Shown piece by piece: positions 68 to 17,233 of a stretch of DNA of 64,000 nucleotides. The notes under the pieces were generated by a model. That model searched no databases. It saw nothing but the letters and a program-made list of their open reading frames with translations, and was not told where the DNA came from. Within the stretch, counting starts at the first letter, position 1; every line of letters starts with the position of its first letter. The DNA comes from Halarcobacter sp. (GTDB lineage: Bacteria > Campylobacterota > Campylobacteria > Campylobacterales > Arcobacteraceae): positions 1,922,001 through 1,986,000 of the forward strand of contig NZ_OY780939.1 in NCBI RefSeq assembly GCF_963675975.1, written 5' to 3'. The translations under genes were made by a program, and so were the position numbers.

Positions 68-162
68 TATTCTAACTTAAAAATTTATTTTAGTTAATAT
101 ATTTATTTACAAAAATTATCTTTTGGTTATATAATAACTAAAACTTTATATAGAGATGAGTG

Positions 163-2073
163 ATGAATAAGATTAGACTTGAAAAACTTATATATAAAAA
201 TTATTTAAAAACATCTGTATTCTCTATACTTTTTATTGAATTAGCACTTTTAATCATATATTTTACAGTTAATAATAAAATTGTAGATATTAGTATCCAA
301 AGTTTATTAAGTGATATTGAAAAAAGTGTTTATTCTACAATTAAAAATTCAATAAAAGACACTGAACAAAAATTTAATCATGTCGAAGATTTATCATATA
401 TTTTACAAAATGAACATCAAAATTATTTTAAATATAGTATGAAGTTAGATGATTTTGATAATAGATATTTTAGATACGCAAATAATGGAGTTTTCTATAA
501 ATACAAAGATACTGGTGGAGCTTCACTTTTTGTATCAAATAAGGAAAATGTAAATAAAAATTTAAAAGATGAAATAGCAAGAACAGAAGTATTTGATACA
601 ACATTAAAAACATTAGTTAATAGAAATAATTTAATAGTTGCAGCGTATTACAATTCACACAGAAACTACACAAGATACTACCCTTTTTTGAAAGATATAT
701 ATAAAGTTTTTCCTGCTGATTTAAAAGTTTCAAACTATAACTTTTATTATGAAGCCAATAAAAAGAATAACCCTGAAAAGAAAGCTGTTTGGACAGATGT
801 ATATCTAGACCCAGCAGGTCAAGGTTGGATGTTAAGTGTAGTTGTACCAATTTATAAAAATGATTTTCTAGAAGGGGTATCAGGAATAGATATTACCGTA
901 AAAAGTATCATAAAAAATATTCTTGAATCAGAGATTCCTTATAATGCTTCATCAATACTTTTAGATAAACATGGAAATATAATAGGTATTACAAAAAATA
1001 GTGAAGATATTTTAAATTTAAAAGATAGTAGTGACTATAAGTATATAAAAGATGAAAAAATTGGTAAGACCATATATAAAAGAGATAGTTTTAATATTTT
1101 AAATCATCAAGATGAAAAAATAAAAGAGCTATTTAACAAAGTTATCAATGAAGATAATTATTCAAAAGAGGTTTATTTAAATGGAAAGAAATATCTTCTT
1201 TTTAGTGAAAAAATTAAAAAAACATCTTGGTTTGTAATCTCTTTAATAGATGAAGATAATATTACCTCAGAAGTTAGAAGTTTAGAAAGTTATTATAAAA
1301 AACTTGGTTATACAATAATTGCAACAATAATAATATTTTATTTAGCTTTTTTTGTGTTTTTACATTTTAGGGCAAAAAAATTTGTTAGAAAAATAAACTT
1401 TCCATTATTAAAAATTATTGAGATGACAAAAAATATTGGTGATAAAAAATCAGCTGAGAAACTCCAAGAGTGTGGTGTATATGAAATTGATTTATTGAGT
1501 GACAATTTTAATAAGATGGTAGATAAGTTAGAAGAAAAAAATAAAGAATTAATACAGTCAGAATATAAAGTTGCTTTTAATGAGAAACTTGCTTTAACTG
1601 ATTCTTTGACAAAAGTTTATAATAGAAGATTTTTAGATGAGTTTTCAAATAAATATTCAAGTGAAATTTCATTAAGTAAAGAGGGACTAGCACTATTTGT
1701 TGTAGATATTGATAATTTTAAAAATATAAATGATACTTACGGACATGATAGGGGAGATGAAGTTATTACAACTTTAGTTTCTATTATAAAAACTGTAATC
1801 AGAAAAAATGATTTCATAGTAAGATTAGGTGGAGATGAGTTTTTAATACTTCTACCTAGTAGTAATCTTAAAAACTGTAAAAAAGTTGCAACTAAACTTA
1901 TAGAAAGCATTAATGAACGAAATGAAATTTTAGAACCCTTTGAAATAAGTTTTACTATTAGTATAGGAACAGCAAATTATGAAAAAGATGATGTAGGTAT
2001 AGAGGATACAATTAAAAGAGCAGATAAGCAACTATACAAGGCAAAATCTCAAGGAAAAAATTGTATTACATAA
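163..2073 (+). CDS. Membrane diguanylate cyclase with periplasmic Cache-type sensor
   Basis: Predicted to make cyclic di-GMP from two GTP in response to an extracytoplasmic signal. A membrane segment near residues 19-39 is followed by a long periplasmic region resembling a double Cache domain (to about 385), a second membrane segment, a HAMP-like linker with a coiled coil, and a C-terminal GGDEF domain. The active-site GGDEF is at about 556-560. RKND lies five residues before it and fits the RxxD product-inhibition site, so the enzyme is probably active and feedback-inhibited. The frame also has a GTG one codon earlier (160); ATG at 163 is preferred, though neither has a strong ribosome site. 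It stands alone ahead of the Liv genes. The ligand cannot be read from the sequence. Confidence 0.88.
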   Translation: MNKIRLEKLIYKNYLKTSVFSILFIELALLIIYFTVNNKIVDISIQSLLSDIEKSVYSTIKNSIKDTEQKFNHVEDLSYILQNEHQNYFKYSMKLDDFDNRYFRYANNGVFYKYKDTGGASLFVSNKENVNKNLKDEIARTEVFDTTLKTLVNRNNLIVAAYYNSHRNYTRYYPFLKDIYKVFPADLKVSNYNFYYEANKKNNPEKKAVWTDVYLDPAGQGWMLSVVVPIYKNDFLEGVSGIDITVKSIIKNILESEIPYNASSILLDKHGNIIGITKNSEDILNLKDSSDYKYIKDEKIGKTIYKRDSFNILNHQDEKIKELFNKVINEDNYSKEVYLNGKKYLLFSEKIKKTSWFVISLIDEDNITSEVRSLESYYKKLGYTIIATIIIFYLAFFVFLHFRAKKFVRKINFPLLKIIEMTKNIGDKKSAEKLQECGVYEIDLLSDNFNKMVDKLEEKNKELIQSEYKVAFNEKLALTDSLTKVYNRRFLDEFSNKYSSEISLSKEGLALFVVDIDNFKNINDTYGHDRGDEVITTLVSIIKTVIRKNDFIVRLGGDEFLILLPSSNLKNCKKVATKLIESINERNEILEPFEISFTISIGTANYEKDDVGIEDTIKRADKQLYKAKSQGKNCIT

Positions 2074-2193: not shown

Positions 2194-3309
2194 ATGAAAA
2201 AATTAATGAGTTTAGCGCTTGCTTCTGCATTAACTTGTGGTATTGCATCTGCAAAAGAGATTAAAGTTGGTGCTGTTATGCCTATGTCTGGACCTCTTGC
2301 ACAATATGGTCAAGTTTGTTATTTAGGTTTAGAATTAGCCAATAAATTACAGCCTACACTTAAAAATGGGGATACAATTAAGATAGTATTAGCTGATAAT
2401 AAAGGTGATAAAGTTGAAACTGCTACAGCTACAACAAGACTTATCTCTTCTGAAAATGTAGTTGCAATTTTAGGTGCACTTACATCTACAAATACAGCTC
2501 AAACAATTGCTATTGCTGATAAGAAAAAAGTTCCAGTAATTGCATCTGTTGCTACAAATGATAAACTTACAGCAAAAAGAGATTATGCAAATAGAGTTTG
2601 TTTTACTGACTCTTTTCAAGGTGAAGTTGTTGCAAATTATGCATTGTCTCAAGGTTATAAATCTGCTGTTGTAATTGTGGACCAAGCTCAAGTTTATTCT
2701 TTAGGTCTTGCAAAAGCATTCCAAAAAGCGTTTAAAAGTAAAGGTGGAAAAATCTTAGAGAAAATCAAAGTAACTTCAGGGGATAAAGATTTTAAAGCTG
2801 TTGTTTCACAAATCAAAAAATTAAATCCTGATTTTATGTTCTTACCTTTATATCACCCAGAAGCTTCTATGATTGCTAGACAATCTAAACAATTAGGTGT
2901 TAATAAACCTATGTTTAGTGGAGATGGTGTTGCTAACCAAACATTTATTGATTTAGGTGGAGATTCAATTGAAGGTTATATGTTTACTGACTTCTTTGAT
3001 TATACAAATCCTCCTTCAAAAACATCTGCTGATTTCGTAGCTTTCCATGAAAAAGAGACTGGAAACAAAGAGATGAATTCATTTACTGCATTAGGTGCTG
3101 ATACTTATAATGTTTTAATTGATGCAATGAATAGATGTGAAGATCCTACAGATTCTGTTTGTGTTAACAAAGAGATTAAAAAAACAACTGGATTTGATGG
3201 TGTTTCAGGAAAAATTTCTATTGATAAAGAGGGTAACTCTACAAGATCTGCTGTTATCAAAGAGATTAAAGATGGGAAAATGGTTTATAAAGCGACTGTA
3301 AATCCTTAA
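2194..3309 (+). CDS. livJ: Branched-chain amino acid ABC transporter, periplasmic binding protein
   Basis: Soluble receptor that delivers an amino acid (leucine/isoleucine/valine type) to the LivHMGF transporter encoded just downstream. The N-terminus is a clear Sec signal peptide (lysines, hydrophobic core, cleavage near GIASA-KE, about residue 20). The mature protein opens with IKVGAVMPMSGPLAQYGQ, typical of the Leu/Ile/Val-binding family (periplasmic-binding fold type I), and its 371 residues match that family. A strong terminator separates it from livH, which would let the binding protein be made in excess. The exact ligand is not readable; related proteins also bind amides or aromatic acids. 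Confidence 0.88.
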   Translation: MKKLMSLALASALTCGIASAKEIKVGAVMPMSGPLAQYGQVCYLGLELANKLQPTLKNGDTIKIVLADNKGDKVETATATTRLISSENVVAILGALTSTNTAQTIAIADKKKVPVIASVATNDKLTAKRDYANRVCFTDSFQGEVVANYALSQGYKSAVVIVDQAQVYSLGLAKAFQKAFKSKGGKILEKIKVTSGDKDFKAVVSQIKKLNPDFMFLPLYHPEASMIARQSKQLGVNKPMFSGDGVANQTFIDLGGDSIEGYMFTDFFDYTNPPSKTSADFVAFHEKETGNKEMNSFTALGADTYNVLIDAMNRCEDPTDSVCVNKEIKKTTGFDGVSGKISIDKEGNSTRSAVIKEIKDGKMVYKATVNP

Positions 3310-11371: not shown

Positions 11372-13213
11372 TTAAAATAAATCTACACTAGATACTTGTT
11401 CCTCTTTAAATCTAATTACTTTATCTCTTCCACTATTTTTAGCTTCATAAAGTGCAATATCAGCATTTTTAATTACTGTGTCAAGTTTTGTAGAATCTTG
11501 AGGATACATAGATAAACCAATACTAACAGTCTTTTTAAGTTTATTACCTGCATAAACATCAATCTCATTTTCTCTAACTCTTTGAGCTATTTTTTGAGCA
11601 ACATTTAAAGCATCTTCTTCAGATTTGATATTTACAAGTAGAACAATAAACTCTTCTCCCCCATATCTTACAACAATATCAGATTCTCTAACAGTATCTT
11701 CTAATATATGTGCTAACTCTTTTAATACAGTATCTCCTATATCATGACCATACTCATCATTTACAGCTTTAAAGTGGTCCATATCAAGCATGAGAATACC
11801 AATATTTCCATTTTCTCTTTTTATTTGTGGTAATAGTTTTTTAGAGTGCTCTTCTAGGAATTTTCTATTATAAAGACCAGTTAATCCATCTTTAAATGCT
11901 GATTCTTTTAATGCTGCCATAAGAAGTTTAACTTCAATTACAGGGGCAGTTTCTGTTAAATAACTTTTTATAAATGTAACTTTTTCTTTTAGCTTCTCTA
12001 ATTTTTCTTTAGTGTCACAAGTAATATGAATAATTAGGTAGTGACTTTTTGAAATATCAATATTTATACAATAATAAAATTTTTCAGTATTGGTATAATA
12101 TTGACAACTATTGTGAAAATCAATAGAAACTACATCATGTTTTGTTCTAGCACATCTACATAATTCAGGGGAACTAGTCATAGTTTTTTCACAATAAAAT
12201 GAATCACCATATTCAATAACTTTTCTCATTTTATGTTTGGCTACATCTATTTCTACAAAAGTAAAGTTTTCTAAGTCAAATCTATTTATCATAACTTGCT
12301 TTAGTCTACAGTAAATCTCATCTAAAGTGCTGTCAAATTCAATTTGTTTTTTGTATTCAAAAAGATTTGATAAGTTATCTATTATCTCTTTAGATTCTGT
12401 TAAAGGATTTCTTTGTAAGTTTGAAGTTTTAAATCCAGTATAAACTTGTAGTTTTTTATCAATATCACTTGTAGTATCTTTAAAAACTTCTAATAAATTA
12501 TTATAATCATTTGTAATATGTATAATATCATTTGATAACTCTTTTGGGGCATCAATTTTATCAAAAATACCTTGAGTTGCATTTGATATATTTATTTTAA
12601 ATAACTCATACAGTCTAAAATAAGGCATAATATATTTTTTATTATAAATTAAAAAGAATATAATTGTAAGTAGAATAAATACTGAAACTATATAAATAGA
12701 TTCAATTCCTATCTCTTTTATTGTACTTATATCCAAAACTAAGGATACAGCACCTAAAGTTGTTCCTTGTTTTACATTATGGCATTGTAAACAGTCGATA
12801 CCTTTTTCTGCTATTGCGTTATATGGTATAGTAACCCTAACACTTGTATGAGTAACAGATTCATCAAGTTCATAATACATTACACCACTATTTAAAACTT
12901 TTTTATCAATATCATCTTTAGGTAAATCTCTTATATGACCAAATTGTTCATTTACATGATCACTTCTTGATATCCAAAGTTTGTTAACATTTTTCATGTT
13001 TGAAATTGATTGGATGAAAGTTCCAACTTGATTCATATTACCATTAACCATATGTGAAGTTAATCCACTTTTTACAGCTTCTGAAATAGAAACGGCATTA
13101 TGAATTGCTGATTTAATACCTGCACTTCTTAAGTTATATAAACTTAATGCGGTAATTGAGATAGATAATGCAATTACCATTAAAACAGAATTTAAGATTA
13201 TATTTCGACTCAT
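11372..13213 (-). CDS. Diguanylate cyclase with periplasmic haem-binding (CXXCH) sensor
   Basis: Membrane GGDEF protein of 613 residues, predicted to make cyclic di-GMP. Two membrane segments (about 5-26 and 171-190) enclose a periplasmic domain that ends with C-L-Q-C-H (141-145), the covalent c-type haem site; the arrangement resembles DUF3365/Tll0287-type haem sensors. After a helical linker there is a GAF-like region (290-420) with a cysteine cluster (C341, C352, C354, C370, C382). The catalytic domain has GGEEF (518-522) and an RxxD inhibition site, RESD (509-512). Redox, gas or light sensing through the haem is inferred. It is convergent with dapD and about 70 bases downstream of the EnvC-like gene's stop on the same strand. 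Confidence 0.85.
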   Translation of the reverse strand: MSRNIILNSVLMVIALSISITALSLYNLRSAGIKSAIHNAVSISEAVKSGLTSHMVNGNMNQVGTFIQSISNMKNVNKLWISRSDHVNEQFGHIRDLPKDDIDKKVLNSGVMYYELDESVTHTSVRVTIPYNAIAEKGIDCLQCHNVKQGTTLGAVSLVLDISTIKEIGIESIYIVSVFILLTIIFFLIYNKKYIMPYFRLYELFKINISNATQGIFDKIDAPKELSNDIIHITNDYNNLLEVFKDTTSDIDKKLQVYTGFKTSNLQRNPLTESKEIIDNLSNLFEYKKQIEFDSTLDEIYCRLKQVMINRFDLENFTFVEIDVAKHKMRKVIEYGDSFYCEKTMTSSPELCRCARTKHDVVSIDFHNSCQYYTNTEKFYYCINIDISKSHYLIIHITCDTKEKLEKLKEKVTFIKSYLTETAPVIEVKLLMAALKESAFKDGLTGLYNRKFLEEHSKKLLPQIKRENGNIGILMLDMDHFKAVNDEYGHDIGDTVLKELAHILEDTVRESDIVVRYGGEEFIVLLVNIKSEEDALNVAQKIAQRVRENEIDVYAGNKLKKTVSIGLSMYPQDSTKLDTVIKNADIALYEAKNSGRDKVIRFKEEQVSSVDLF

Positions 13214-13282
13214 ATTTTTGCATACCCTTTAAGGTAGATATTTTATAATAATTTTTCTTAATAGCTTATTTTTAAGTTATTT

Positions 13283-14581
13283 TTATATTCTAAACAAGTC
13301 TTTTGGGTTTACATGTTTTTCATTTTTTGTAGCTTGAAAAGTAAGGGTATCATTTACTCTACCAACAACATAACCTTTTTTTATCCAACGACCAACTTTT
13401 AAAGAAGGTGATATTTGATCTAAATGAGAGTAGATTGTATGTAGTCCATCTTTATGTTGAATAATAACTACATTTTCTAACATTCCTGCATCTTTTTTTG
13501 CATATACAATTTTACCATTGAAGATTGATTTTACTTTTGCTTGAGGTTTTTTTGTTTTTAATACAATTGATTCATTAAAAAGTTCAATTTTATATACTGG
13601 ATCAAAATATGTCCCAAACTTTTTAACAACTTCAAAAGAGTCTAAAGGTGCAATTGTTTTTCTTCCTCTATATTTTGTCATTTTTATACCAGCAGTTGAA
13701 GAACCAATCATTCTAACATCAATATCAATATCATTTGCATATTTGCTATTTCTAGCTTCTTCATCTAAAGTATAATCTTTTTTCGAAGATTTTTTACTTG
13801 CTTTCTTTTTTTGTTTAGCAAGTCTTCTTGCTTTTGCAATTCTAGCTTTTCTCTCTTTTTCCAACTCTTCTTTTTTCAAAATATTAAGTTTTCCTAAAAG
13901 ATCTTTTAGTGATTCTTGTTTTTGTATAGTCTTTTTTAATTCAGATTGGTATTCTTTATGTTTTCTTTCTAAACTTACAAGAGATTTTGAATATTTCTTT
14001 TTTAATATGTTTAGTTCATCTTTTTTCTTTTTTCTATCTTTTATATAAGATGAGATCTTTTCAATACGCTTTTGATTCTCTTTTTTATTTTGTGTAATAA
14101 GTTCATAACTGTTATTTAGTTTTAATATCTCATCTTTTGAATTTTGTGAAAGTATTGAATATATTTCAGAATCAACTAACTCTTTAAGATCACTTTCACC
14201 TGCAAGTTTAAGTGCAATAGAAGAGGAAAAATCATCTATAATAACTTTTATAATCTGTTTTTCATTATCTTCTCTTTTTTTCACTAAAGATTTTGAATCT
14301 TCTTGTAGATTATCTAAAGATTTTTTTGCCTCTTCAAGTTGTGATTGATGTTTTTTAATATCATCATTTACAACATCAATAACTTTTTCTAATTTACTTA
14401 ATTCTTGGTTTTGATTAGAGATTTGTTTTGCTAAGATTTTAACTTGAATATCTGCTTTTTGCTGTTCACTTTTATTTTTTTCTAGGATTTGCTTGTTTTT
14501 CTGAATTTTTTTATCAATAGTTTTAGTAGAAGCATCTAGAAAAGAGATAATAAAAATAAAAATAAGTAAAAATCTAGTCAT
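13283..14581 (-). CDS. EnvC-like murein hydrolase activator (coiled coil plus LytM/M23 domain)
   Basis: Exported protein of 432 residues: signal peptide (1-17), two long coiled coils (about 20-250, rich in K/E/Q), a basic linker (KARRLAKQKKKASKKSSKK) and a C-terminal LytM domain (about 300-432). In classic M23 peptidases zinc is held by H..D and HxH; here the first motif reads KKFGTYFDP without His and the last is LTFQATKN instead of LHFE, so the domain looks catalytically degenerate, as in EnvC. Position directly after ftsE and ftsX, overlapping ftsX by 8 bases, supports a role in FtsEX-controlled septal peptidoglycan splitting. Confidence 0.8.
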   Translation of the reverse strand: MTRFLLIFIFIISFLDASTKTIDKKIQKNKQILEKNKSEQQKADIQVKILAKQISNQNQELSKLEKVIDVVNDDIKKHQSQLEEAKKSLDNLQEDSKSLVKKREDNEKQIIKVIIDDFSSSIALKLAGESDLKELVDSEIYSILSQNSKDEILKLNNSYELITQNKKENQKRIEKISSYIKDRKKKKDELNILKKKYSKSLVSLERKHKEYQSELKKTIQKQESLKDLLGKLNILKKEELEKERKARIAKARRLAKQKKKASKKSSKKDYTLDEEARNSKYANDIDIDVRMIGSSTAGIKMTKYRGRKTIAPLDSFEVVKKFGTYFDPVYKIELFNESIVLKTKKPQAKVKSIFNGKIVYAKKDAGMLENVVIIQHKDGLHTIYSHLDQISPSLKVGRWIKKGYVVGRVNDTLTFQATKNEKHVNPKDLFRI

Positions 14582-15392
14582 GTTTAATTTTATATTTTAA
14601 AAGTACACCAATTATAGTTAATATAGAAATACCAAACGATAGAACGAAAATTTTTAATAATGAATCTTCTATTGTAAGTGTAACTAATACAATATTTTCT
14701 AAATCATCAGGTAATATAATCCCAATATTCCCAACTAAATATATAAATATAGCTGAAACAGTAAAAAATGATATTAGTGAACTAAATATAGCATATTTCA
14801 GTATAGTTGCAGAACTATATAAAATAGAGGCACCATGTAACTTTAGAATTGTGATTTTTTCATGATGTTCATAAAACCAAATCCTTATTTGTTTTGAAAT
14901 CATAATAATTGCAAATATAGTAATGATAGAAAAAAGTATCATACTTATTTGGCTAAGTAAAAGTAGTAGTAGATAGATACTGTTGTGGTTTTTAGAAAAT
15001 ATTTCTACTTTTCTAATATTTTTATTTTCATAAAGTTCATTTTTAATACTATCTAATTCACTGGTTGTTGGAAAAACTTCAAGTTTTATTTTGTAAAAGT
15101 GTGGAAGTTTTCTTTTTAATAGATCAACTGAAGTACTAGATAAACTTGAACTAATATTTTTTATGATTTTATCGTTTTGAAGTGTAATAATCTTATCAAC
15201 TTTTATATTAGCTAATTCACTAATATTTTCTTTTATCAAAGGTGTATTTGTAATAATTACAATTGAATAATCATCAGCAATAGTTTTTTTATAGTTATTA
15301 AGAATATTTGTTGCAAAAATATAAATAATAAAAGAGATTAACATTGCTGTTAATGGTATGATAAAAGCAAAAGTGTTTTTAAGAAACTTCAT
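14574..15392 (-). CDS. ftsX: Cell division protein FtsX
   Basis: Membrane partner of FtsE. The protein has an N-terminal membrane segment, an extracytoplasmic loop (about 35-140) and three C-terminal membrane segments (about 145-170, 195-220, 240-265), the FtsX layout. I start at the internal ATG (15392, [13 protein letters not shown]) rather than the ATG four codons earlier at 15404; either start lies inside the end of ftsE. FtsX transmits ATP hydrolysis by FtsE to a periplasmic activator, here likely the adjacent EnvC-like protein. Confidence 0.8.
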   Translation of the reverse strand: MKFLKNTFAFIIPLTAMLISFIIYIFATNILNNYKKTIADDYSIVIITNTPLIKENISELANIKVDKIITLQNDKIIKNISSSLSSTSVDLLKRKLPHFYKIKLEVFPTTSELDSIKNELYENKNIRKVEIFSKNHNSIYLLLLLLSQISMILFSIITIFAIIMISKQIRIWFYEHHEKITILKLHGASILYSSATILKYAIFSSLISFFTVSAIFIYLVGNIGIILPDDLENIVLVTLTIEDSLLKIFVLSFGISILTIIGVLLKYKIKHD

Positions 15393-16041
15393 AAATAATA
15401 CCATCTTCTATAGAGAGTTGTCTAAATCTAATACCAAAGTTTTTAGGAACTCTGTGGGTTACAACAACAACAGTGATACCTAATTGTTCATTTGCACCTT
15501 TTAAAAGATTCCATACAACTTCAGCAGAATAATCATCAAGGTTACCAGTTGGTTCATCTGCAATTATGATTTTTGGATTGTGTGCAAGAGCACGTGCAAC
15601 GGCAACTCTTTGTTGCTCCCCACCACTTAGTTCATTTGGATAATAACCTTGTCTATGGGCTAATTTTACGTGAGTTAAAAGTTTTATTGCTTGCTCTTTT
15701 GATACATCACTTGAATAACCATTGATTTTAAGTGGAATCATAATATTTTCTTCAATAGTCCACTCTTTTATAAGTTTATAATCTTGGAAAATAATTCCAA
15801 TATCTTTTCTTAGTCGTCTAAGGGGTTTTCCTTTTATTCCAAAAACCTCTTGTCCTGCAATATTTAAACTACCGTGTTTTAAAGGAATCTCTCCATAAAA
15901 TGATTTTAAAAGTGTAGATTTTCCACTACCACTTGTTCCGCCAATAAATATAAACTCTCTTTCTTTTACTGAAAAATTACCTTTTTTTATAATGTATTTA
16001 TTCTCATCATAAGAGAGGTATATATTTTTAGCTTCAATCAT
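15379..16041 (-). CDS. ftsE: Cell division ATP-binding protein FtsE
   Basis: ABC ATPase of 220 residues with Walker [11 protein letters not shown] (about 34-43), signature [15 protein letters not shown], Walker [13 protein letters not shown] and a switch His in VVVTHR. Sequence and neighbours (ftsX, EnvC-like) identify FtsE rather than a LolD-type ATPase. It overlaps trmB by 8 bases at its start and ftsX at its end, so the four genes read as one transcript. Confidence 0.88.
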
Positions 16042-17233
16042 CTTGTAATATCTCTTTTAGTTTATTATGAGCTTTTATATTTGCACTTGTAGGAAGTGGT
16101 GTATCTTGAAAATATTTAGCTTTTTTCTCATCTATTAAAATATATTTGTTTAAAGGTCTGTCAAAACTTCCATAAGTAACTTGAATAAGTCCAGAATCAT
16201 CTTTATCTTCTATTACAAAAATATCTTCAATATGGATAAAATAATCCTCTTCAACTATAGCTTTAGTACAAATATTCTTTATAATCTTTGAAAACTCAAT
16301 CTCTTTATCAAAACTAAAATCGTATTCAAGGTTTATATCTTCATCTTCTTGGGCACAATAAAGTGTTACATCATAGATATGTTTTCCTTGTTTTTTCCAT
16401 CTATCTTCATATTTACTTGAAACTTGTAAATCTTTGTTTATATCAATCTCTATTTTACCTTTAGGAAGGTTAGTTAAAAGCTCAGTACAATAATCAAAAT
16501 ATTTTCTACTATCTGTTCTTAACTCTAAAGTTCCACCAACTTTTAATACTCTTAAAGCTTCATTTATAAAAGCATTTGAGTATATTCTTCTATGTGGTTT
16601 TTTGTCCCATGGTACAGGGAAATGTACAAAAATTCTTCCAACTTTATTTGAATTTATAAACTCCATAAAAAGTCTTGCATCATAGTTTACAACTAAAACA
16701 TTTTCTATATTTTGTATAGTTAATTGTTTTAATAATTGTTCAATAGATGGTGTATGAATCTCTAAACCAATAAATTGAATATGTGGATTCTCTTTTGCTT
16801 GATGTAGAAGATGTCTTCCACTACCAAACCCAATCTCTATTTGAATCTCTTTTTCTGTTTGAAAATCATTTACAAAAAAATCTATATCTTTTAAATTCTC
16901 TTGATCAGGCTTAACTTTTTGATTAAAGTTTTGAGTATTACTAAAAAGTATGTTTGCATCAATTGCTTCAACATAAGAATTTATAGCATCTTTAACAATT
17001 TGTACAGGGGTAACTCTTGTGACTTTGTCTGCTTTTAAAAGTAGATTTTCATCTTTTGATTTAAGAGTTAAAAAAAACTCTTTATTGTTGTTTGTAACAG
17101 CTATTTTGTATTCTGGCTTTCTTGTCTTTTGTGTAAAGTTATAAGACTTTGCAACAAAATCAAAAGAAATATCTTTGAATTTTGTAGGCGTTACTAATTC
17201 TTTATTGTATTTATCAAAAACTATGTGCGGCAT
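16034..17233 (-). CDS. trmB: tRNA (guanine-N7-)-methyltransferase TrmB
   Basis: Uses S-adenosylmethionine to form m7G46 in tRNA. The Rossmann methyltransferase core lies in the middle (about 130-290): EIGFGSGRHLLHQA as the SAM site, GLEIHTPSIEQLLKQ, and VHFPVPWDKKPHRRI, the TrmB signature. At 399 residues it is much longer than the usual 210-240; an N-terminal extension of about 120 residues and a C-terminal extension of about 100 flank the core, a form I associate with Campylobacter/Helicobacter relatives. It lies upstream of ftsE and 3 bases after the fibronectin lipoprotein gene. Confidence 0.85.
   Translation of the reverse strand: MPHIVFDKYNKELVTPTKFKDISFDFVAKSYNFTQKTRKPEYKIAVTNNNKEFFLTLKSKDENLLLKADKVTRVTPVQIVKDAINSYVEAIDANILFSNTQNFNQKVKPDQENLKDIDFFVNDFQTEKEIQIEIGFGSGRHLLHQAKENPHIQFIGLEIHTPSIEQLLKQLTIQNIENVLVVNYDARLFMEFINSNKVGRIFVHFPVPWDKKPHRRIYSNAFINEALRVLKVGGTLELRTDSRKYFDYCTELLTNLPKGKIEIDINKDLQVSSKYEDRWKKQGKHIYDVTLYCAQEDEDINLEYDFSFDKEIEFSKIIKNICTKAIVEEDYFIHIEDIFVIEDKDDSGLIQVTYGSFDRPLNKYILIDEKKAKYFQDTPLPTSANIKAHNKLKEILQDD

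Follow-up and report, generated by a model that had tools for sequence, protein, structure and literature searches.

The window analysed here is a stretch of 64,000 nucleotides from a Halarcobacter sp. (contig NZ_OY780939.1, positions 1,922,001 to 1,986,000). A gene for a predicted diguanylate cyclase (Table 1) lies about 70 bases after envC and on the same strand as trmB-ftsE-ftsX-envC (window 11372-17233), and dapD and priA converge on this run of five genes. The order trmB-ftsE-ftsX-envC-cyclase is seen again in loci of the same genus and in L087, L088, L092, L097, and L100; the cyclase may be co-transcribed with the FtsEX-EnvC cell-wall genes. Another cyclase-like gene (637 residues, window 160-2073) has a GGDEF motif and a periplasmic part without CXXCH, and the gene after it (2194-3309) looks like one for a branched-chain amino acid binding protein. 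The genome holds 53 GGDEF matches, the cyclase under study being one among many, and only three of these carry the particular GAF domain described below: the present gene and its paralogues at C1:1401264 and C1:1163003. The nearest relatives with named records belong to Arcobacter, Halarcobacter, Malaciobacter, and Poseidonibacter.

Table 1. Features of the cyclase gene, in order along the protein (positions within the window)
Feature	Position	Strand	Basis
Predicted diguanylate cyclase, 613 aa	11372..13213	(-)	ORF; AlphaFold pLDDT 85.6; matches in 49/60 related genomes
TM helix 1, residues 5-28	13130..13201	(-)	Hydropathy; helix in model
Periplasmic c-haem Cache-type sensor domain (predicted), residues 28-169	12707..13132	(-)	Profile match to 3b42; PF21563 in 26/98 relatives
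Met55, predicted distal haem ligand	13049..13051	(-)	Met in 150/155; aligned with GSU0935 Met60
C141-L-Q-C-H145, haem c attachment motif (predicted)	12779..12793	(-)	C/C/H in 154/155/152 of 155
TM helix 2, residues 170-192	12638..12706	(-)	Hydropathy; model helix
HAMP-like linker and coiled coil, residues 193-258	12440..12637	(-)	HAMP model; conserved P197/G215; model helices
GAF-fold domain, cytoplasmic, with four-cysteine site, residues 264-430	11924..12424	(-)	AlphaFold, Foldseek, VIA
Cys341, after strand 2, conserved site	12191..12193	(-)	Cys in 147/155
Cys352, conserved site, C-R-A-x-R-T motif	12158..12160	(-)	Cys in 154/155
Cys354, outside conserved site	12152..12154	(-)	Cys 13/155, Ala 128
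Cys370, conserved site	12104..12106	(-)	Cys in 154/155
Cys382, in strand 3 (379-386), conserved site	12068..12070	(-)	Cys in 154/155
GGDEF catalytic domain, residues 440-597	11423..11896	(-)	Pfam PF00990, 164 bits (cut-off 23.8)
I-site RESD and GGEEF motif	11648..11689	(-)	Motif reading in query and relatives

The computed domain order places a periplasmic sensor domain between two membrane helices, followed by a linker, a GAF-fold domain, and the catalytic domain. The linker resembles HAMP, with the HAMP model matching 5 of 72 relatives (best 8.7e-5); P197 is nearly invariant and G215 is invariant. Conservation was assessed over 155 homologues drawn from two partly overlapping collections. 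All 155 retain GGEEF, and the RxxD inhibition site, located five residues before it, is found in 126. The protein is predicted to be an inner-membrane GGEEF diguanylate cyclase with an intact I-site.

As the full-length fold search was dominated by the GGDEF domain, the periplasmic part was compared by sequence profile. With a profile of 98 periplasmic domains, the top PDB match, which spans nearly all of the domain, is the sensor domain of GSU0935 (3b42, E 9e-4); the next matches (E 3e-3) are unrelated proteins. In the 3b42 alignment, C141, C144, and H145 fall on C140, C143, and H144, and Met55 falls on the axial Met60. We regard homology of the whole domain to GSU0935 as moderately supported at the level of sequence profiles. 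Pfam PF11845 (Tll0287-like) does not match the query and matches relatives weakly (3 of 98 and 5 of 72, best 0.0011); 26 of the 98 match the sensor model PF21563 instead. As the query falls below the PF11845 threshold, we class it as a divergent relative of the c-haem Cache domains, of GSU0935 type. The same genome has three clear PF11845 c-haem domains elsewhere (L170, L171, and L172), one of them in a frame of 198 residues and the other two in frames of 653 and 1004. Were the CXXCH to carry no haem, its conservation would be due to another metal or to a thiol function; we consider this very improbable, since haem is favoured by the motif and where it lies, by the His/Met pair, and by the homology to the crystallised haem sensor GSU0935, and cytochrome c assembly genes (PF01578) are present in the same genome. 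In GSU0582 and GSU0935, oxidation makes the axial Met60 dissociate, and CO or NO can take its place on the haem (PMC8396549). Such domains are named sCache_heme in a 2026 preprint, which finds them in over half of the genomes of Campylobacterota, already reports them on GGDEF/EAL proteins, and describes a signalling c-haem Cache member that binds NO tightly and forms no stable oxygen complex (PMC12889525). No cd1 nitrite reductase was found in the present genome, so any NO sensed natively does not come from such an enzyme.

The first-pass annotation, made from the DNA letters, had placed a covalent-haem motif in the periplasmic part and five cysteines in a GAF-like cytoplasmic part of one GGEEF cyclase. 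Every residue and coordinate it gave for these was confirmed on the 613-residue frame, and the haem motif holds up both in its conservation (CXXCH kept in about 98% of the 155 relatives) and in the GSU0935 profile match. The cytoplasmic site, which the annotation would have given up had its cysteines not been conserved, stands with one correction: Cys341, Cys352, Cys370, and Cys382 are kept in 95-99% of the relatives, whereas Cys354 is not. As the latter is alanine in most relatives, the site has four cysteines and not five; judged by the alignment, Cys354 is a lineage feature. The conservation of the two sites exceeds chance: other cysteines of the same region served as internal controls and are not kept either (C302 varies, C399 occurs in 48 of 155), and Cys354, Cys302, and Cys399 were ruled out as ligands by their lack of conservation. 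Arg353 and Ser363 are nearly invariant as well, giving the motif C-R-A-x-R-T...V-x-S. The placement of both sites on one cyclase is borne out by the relatives, 144 of 155 having the CXXCH and the four cysteines complete together. A larger alignment of 180 rows contains 167 with four cysteines, seven with three, and six with none or one; one of these six (L222) is a random hit to an unrelated frame and is to be dropped. Among the rows with three, the first cysteine is displaced by one alignment column in L038, L043, and L057, and a new cysteine stands three residues after C370 in L070, L073, and L078. The cysteines are lost and gained as a set, as one shared site predicts.

As the same annotation had suspected, the domain with the four cysteines is a genuine GAF fold. 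AlphaFold predicts the isolated domain with pLDDT 91 and pTM 0.84, Foldseek matches it to GAF domains (prob 1.00), and VIA comparison gives Z up to 13.5 (rmsd 3.1 over 149 residues). No sequence match of this domain to any solved structure, Fe-S proteins included, was found, and Pfam and NCBIfam models gave chance-level matches with no GAF model among them. One relative matches the NCBIfam PocR model at 0.0014, and the profile comparison with a PocR domain is not significant (prob 0.5). All four cysteines lie in one 42-residue segment from the end of strand 2 to strand 3, with the spacing X10-X17-X11. In GAF domains, the region between strands 2 and 3 acts as a lid over the ligand pocket. Their position in the predicted fold suggests that the four cysteines cluster.

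By themselves, the four cysteines do not separate an iron-sulfur cluster, a zinc ion, and a disulfide switch. In the second case, the haem would be as proposed, and one zinc would close the GAF lid, making the domain structural or a zinc sensor rather than a redox sensor. Four thiolates kept and lost as a set suit zinc as well as they suit Fe-S, but the 10/17/11 spacing is unlike that of common zinc knuckles and most members have no CXXC pairs. Zinc-sensing cyclases do exist, although their CZB domain differs in using three histidines and one cysteine in a helical bundle (PMC8846402). On balance, zinc seems unlikely to us. In the third case, the cysteines would be free of any ligand and would switch between thiol and disulfide or persulfide forms within the GAF pocket, in a sensor built on a fold like that of free methionine-R-sulfoxide reductase (fRMsr), a GAF-fold thiol enzyme. 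In the structural comparison, fRMsr entries rank near the top (3mmh, Z 13.4, rmsd 3.5 over 151; 3ksf, Z 12.7, rmsd 3.1 over 141), but plain GAF domains tie with them within Z 1. fRMsr uses cysteines in the same lid, and many of the bacteria concerned are sulfur oxidisers, both of which count for a switch. When E. coli MsrC is compared by hhalign, however, no significant sequence relation to fRMsr emerges (prob 1.0 of 100); in this weak alignment, the SEIV of the SEIVxP substrate motif stands opposite a YYCINI stretch. The all-four-or-none pattern also exceeds what a two-cysteine disulfide needs, and we give the switch only a small chance.

Relatives that carry one of the two sites bear on whether both matter. 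The four cysteines and GGEEF occur without CXXCH in L074, L075, L205-L209, and L211, in which the periplasmic part is shorter, and cysteines and GGEEF occur likewise in L214-L217, in which it is different and non-haem. In L214-L217, the cysteines read C-X7-C-X2-C-X17-C plus one further cysteine, which is near the AirS spacing. Conversely, L060, L219, and L220 keep CXXCH and GGEEF and have lost all or nearly all of the GAF cysteines together; L221 and L223 have neither site. As each site is kept alone in some lineage, the two are independent modules. The single-site relatives, the haem-only ones included, are ready natural controls. It could still be that the periplasmic haem is the only sensor, with the cytoplasmic site a folding element in a plain haem c-sensing cyclase. 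The three haem-only relatives would fit this, as would the NO-sensing behaviour of haem Cache domains on signalling outputs (PMC12889525), but the relatives without CXXCH retain GGEEF and the GAF site in two distinct periplasmic contexts, and we hold this reading to be distinctly improbable.

The GAF domain is present in 81 of 298 sampled Campylobacterota genomes and in 34 of 58 genera; matches in the scan of genome contigs apparently all belong to Campylobacterota, and a search of plasmids for the family gave no match. In L212, L213, and L218, two family genes are adjacent, one with GGEEF and the other with CXXCH, the four cysteines, and an altered GGDEF motif (YSGDTF, YGVDTF, and LSGDEF). 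Each pair is possibly a catalytic protein and its regulatory partner.

We give an even chance to an inner-membrane cyclase with haem c outside and a second cofactor inside, most likely Fe-S, as two redox or gas sites in series. In this two-site model, the haem attachment, the axial role of Met55, and the second cofactor are our interpretation, as are the ligands sensed and the sign of the response. Outside, the Cache-type domain would hold one covalent haem c, with His145 as the near axial ligand and Met55 probably as the far one. On oxidation, or when NO replaces Met55, the ligation would change and the helices that run through the membrane and the HAMP-like linker would move. Inside, the GAF domain would hold the second cofactor, most likely an iron-sulfur cluster, on Cys341, Cys352, Cys370, and Cys382, and its loss, oxidation, or nitrosylation would alter the coiled coil that pairs two GGEEF domains. 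The c-di-GMP output would then depend on the states of both sites and would be limited by product binding at the RESD site. Such a cyclase would probably sense redox conditions or nitric oxide both outside and inside the membrane.

In known c-di-GMP networks, redox state and gases are sensed by means of haem b, flavin, hemerythrin, or disulfides. The first-pass annotation knew of no described cyclase with both a haem and a cysteine site, and our full-text search of open-licence papers likewise found none with both Fe-S and c-type haem. The sensory domains of c-di-GMP proteins were surveyed in 2022, and that census makes no mention of iron-sulfur, Fe-S, or c-type. The fusion of c-haem and GGDEF is already known as an architecture; what is new, by the papers searched, is the four-cysteine GAF domain and the combination. 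That this is a widespread Campylobacterota cyclase family with haem c outside and Fe-S inside on one chain has in our estimate slightly less than an even chance; no earlier cyclase would then have had an Fe-S sensor, and the protein would be a two-sided, two-cofactor coincidence detector of redox state or NO that writes c-di-GMP. A conserved two-cofactor protein would permit a direct test of how bacteria compare redox outside and inside before they settle or swim; the phylum is common at oxic-anoxic and sulfidic borders.

Several known systems share parts of this architecture. DcsBis (4zmu) has, like the present protein, a GAF domain directly before GGDEF and matches it structurally over residues 300-602; unlike it, DcsBis has no haem domain, and to our knowledge no four-cysteine site. 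The c-haem Cache proteins (GSU0582 and GSU0935 of Geobacter, DcrA of Desulfovibrio, DUF3365/Tll0287) likewise have a periplasmic CXXCH between two membrane helices with a HAMP-like linker behind, and GSU0935 has the same near histidine ligand and, in Met60, the counterpart of Met55. None of these is described with a four-cysteine GAF domain; GSU0582 and GSU0935 drive chemotaxis, where the output here is GGEEF, and the query is too divergent for PF11845. GSU2622 of Geobacter combines, as here, a c-haem motif, HAMP, GAF, and a c-di-GMP-type output (PMC8396549), but its output is HD-GYP (breakdown) and not GGEEF. For the cytoplasmic site, the likeness to AirS and CSK on which the Fe-S reading draws is put forward as an analogy, no sequence link having been found. 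CSK/Hik2 is a redox kinase with a [3Fe-4S] cluster in its GAF domain (PMC6949291) and so resembles the proposed site in reporting redox state from a GAF Fe-S centre; it differs in that one conserved cysteine is shown to matter for the cluster, in its kinase output, and in having no membrane haem. AirS of Staphylococcus aureus binds, through Cys-X7-Cys-X-Cys-X17-Cys, a [2Fe-2S] cluster that is reactive towards peroxide and NO donors (PMC4601167). Its output is a histidine kinase and its X7/X1/X17 spacing differs from the X10/X17/X11 found here, but both proteins have a cytoplasmic sensor region with a cysteine cluster and share the X17 interval (C352-X17-C370 here), so that AirS is likened to the present cyclase by spacing and proposed role.
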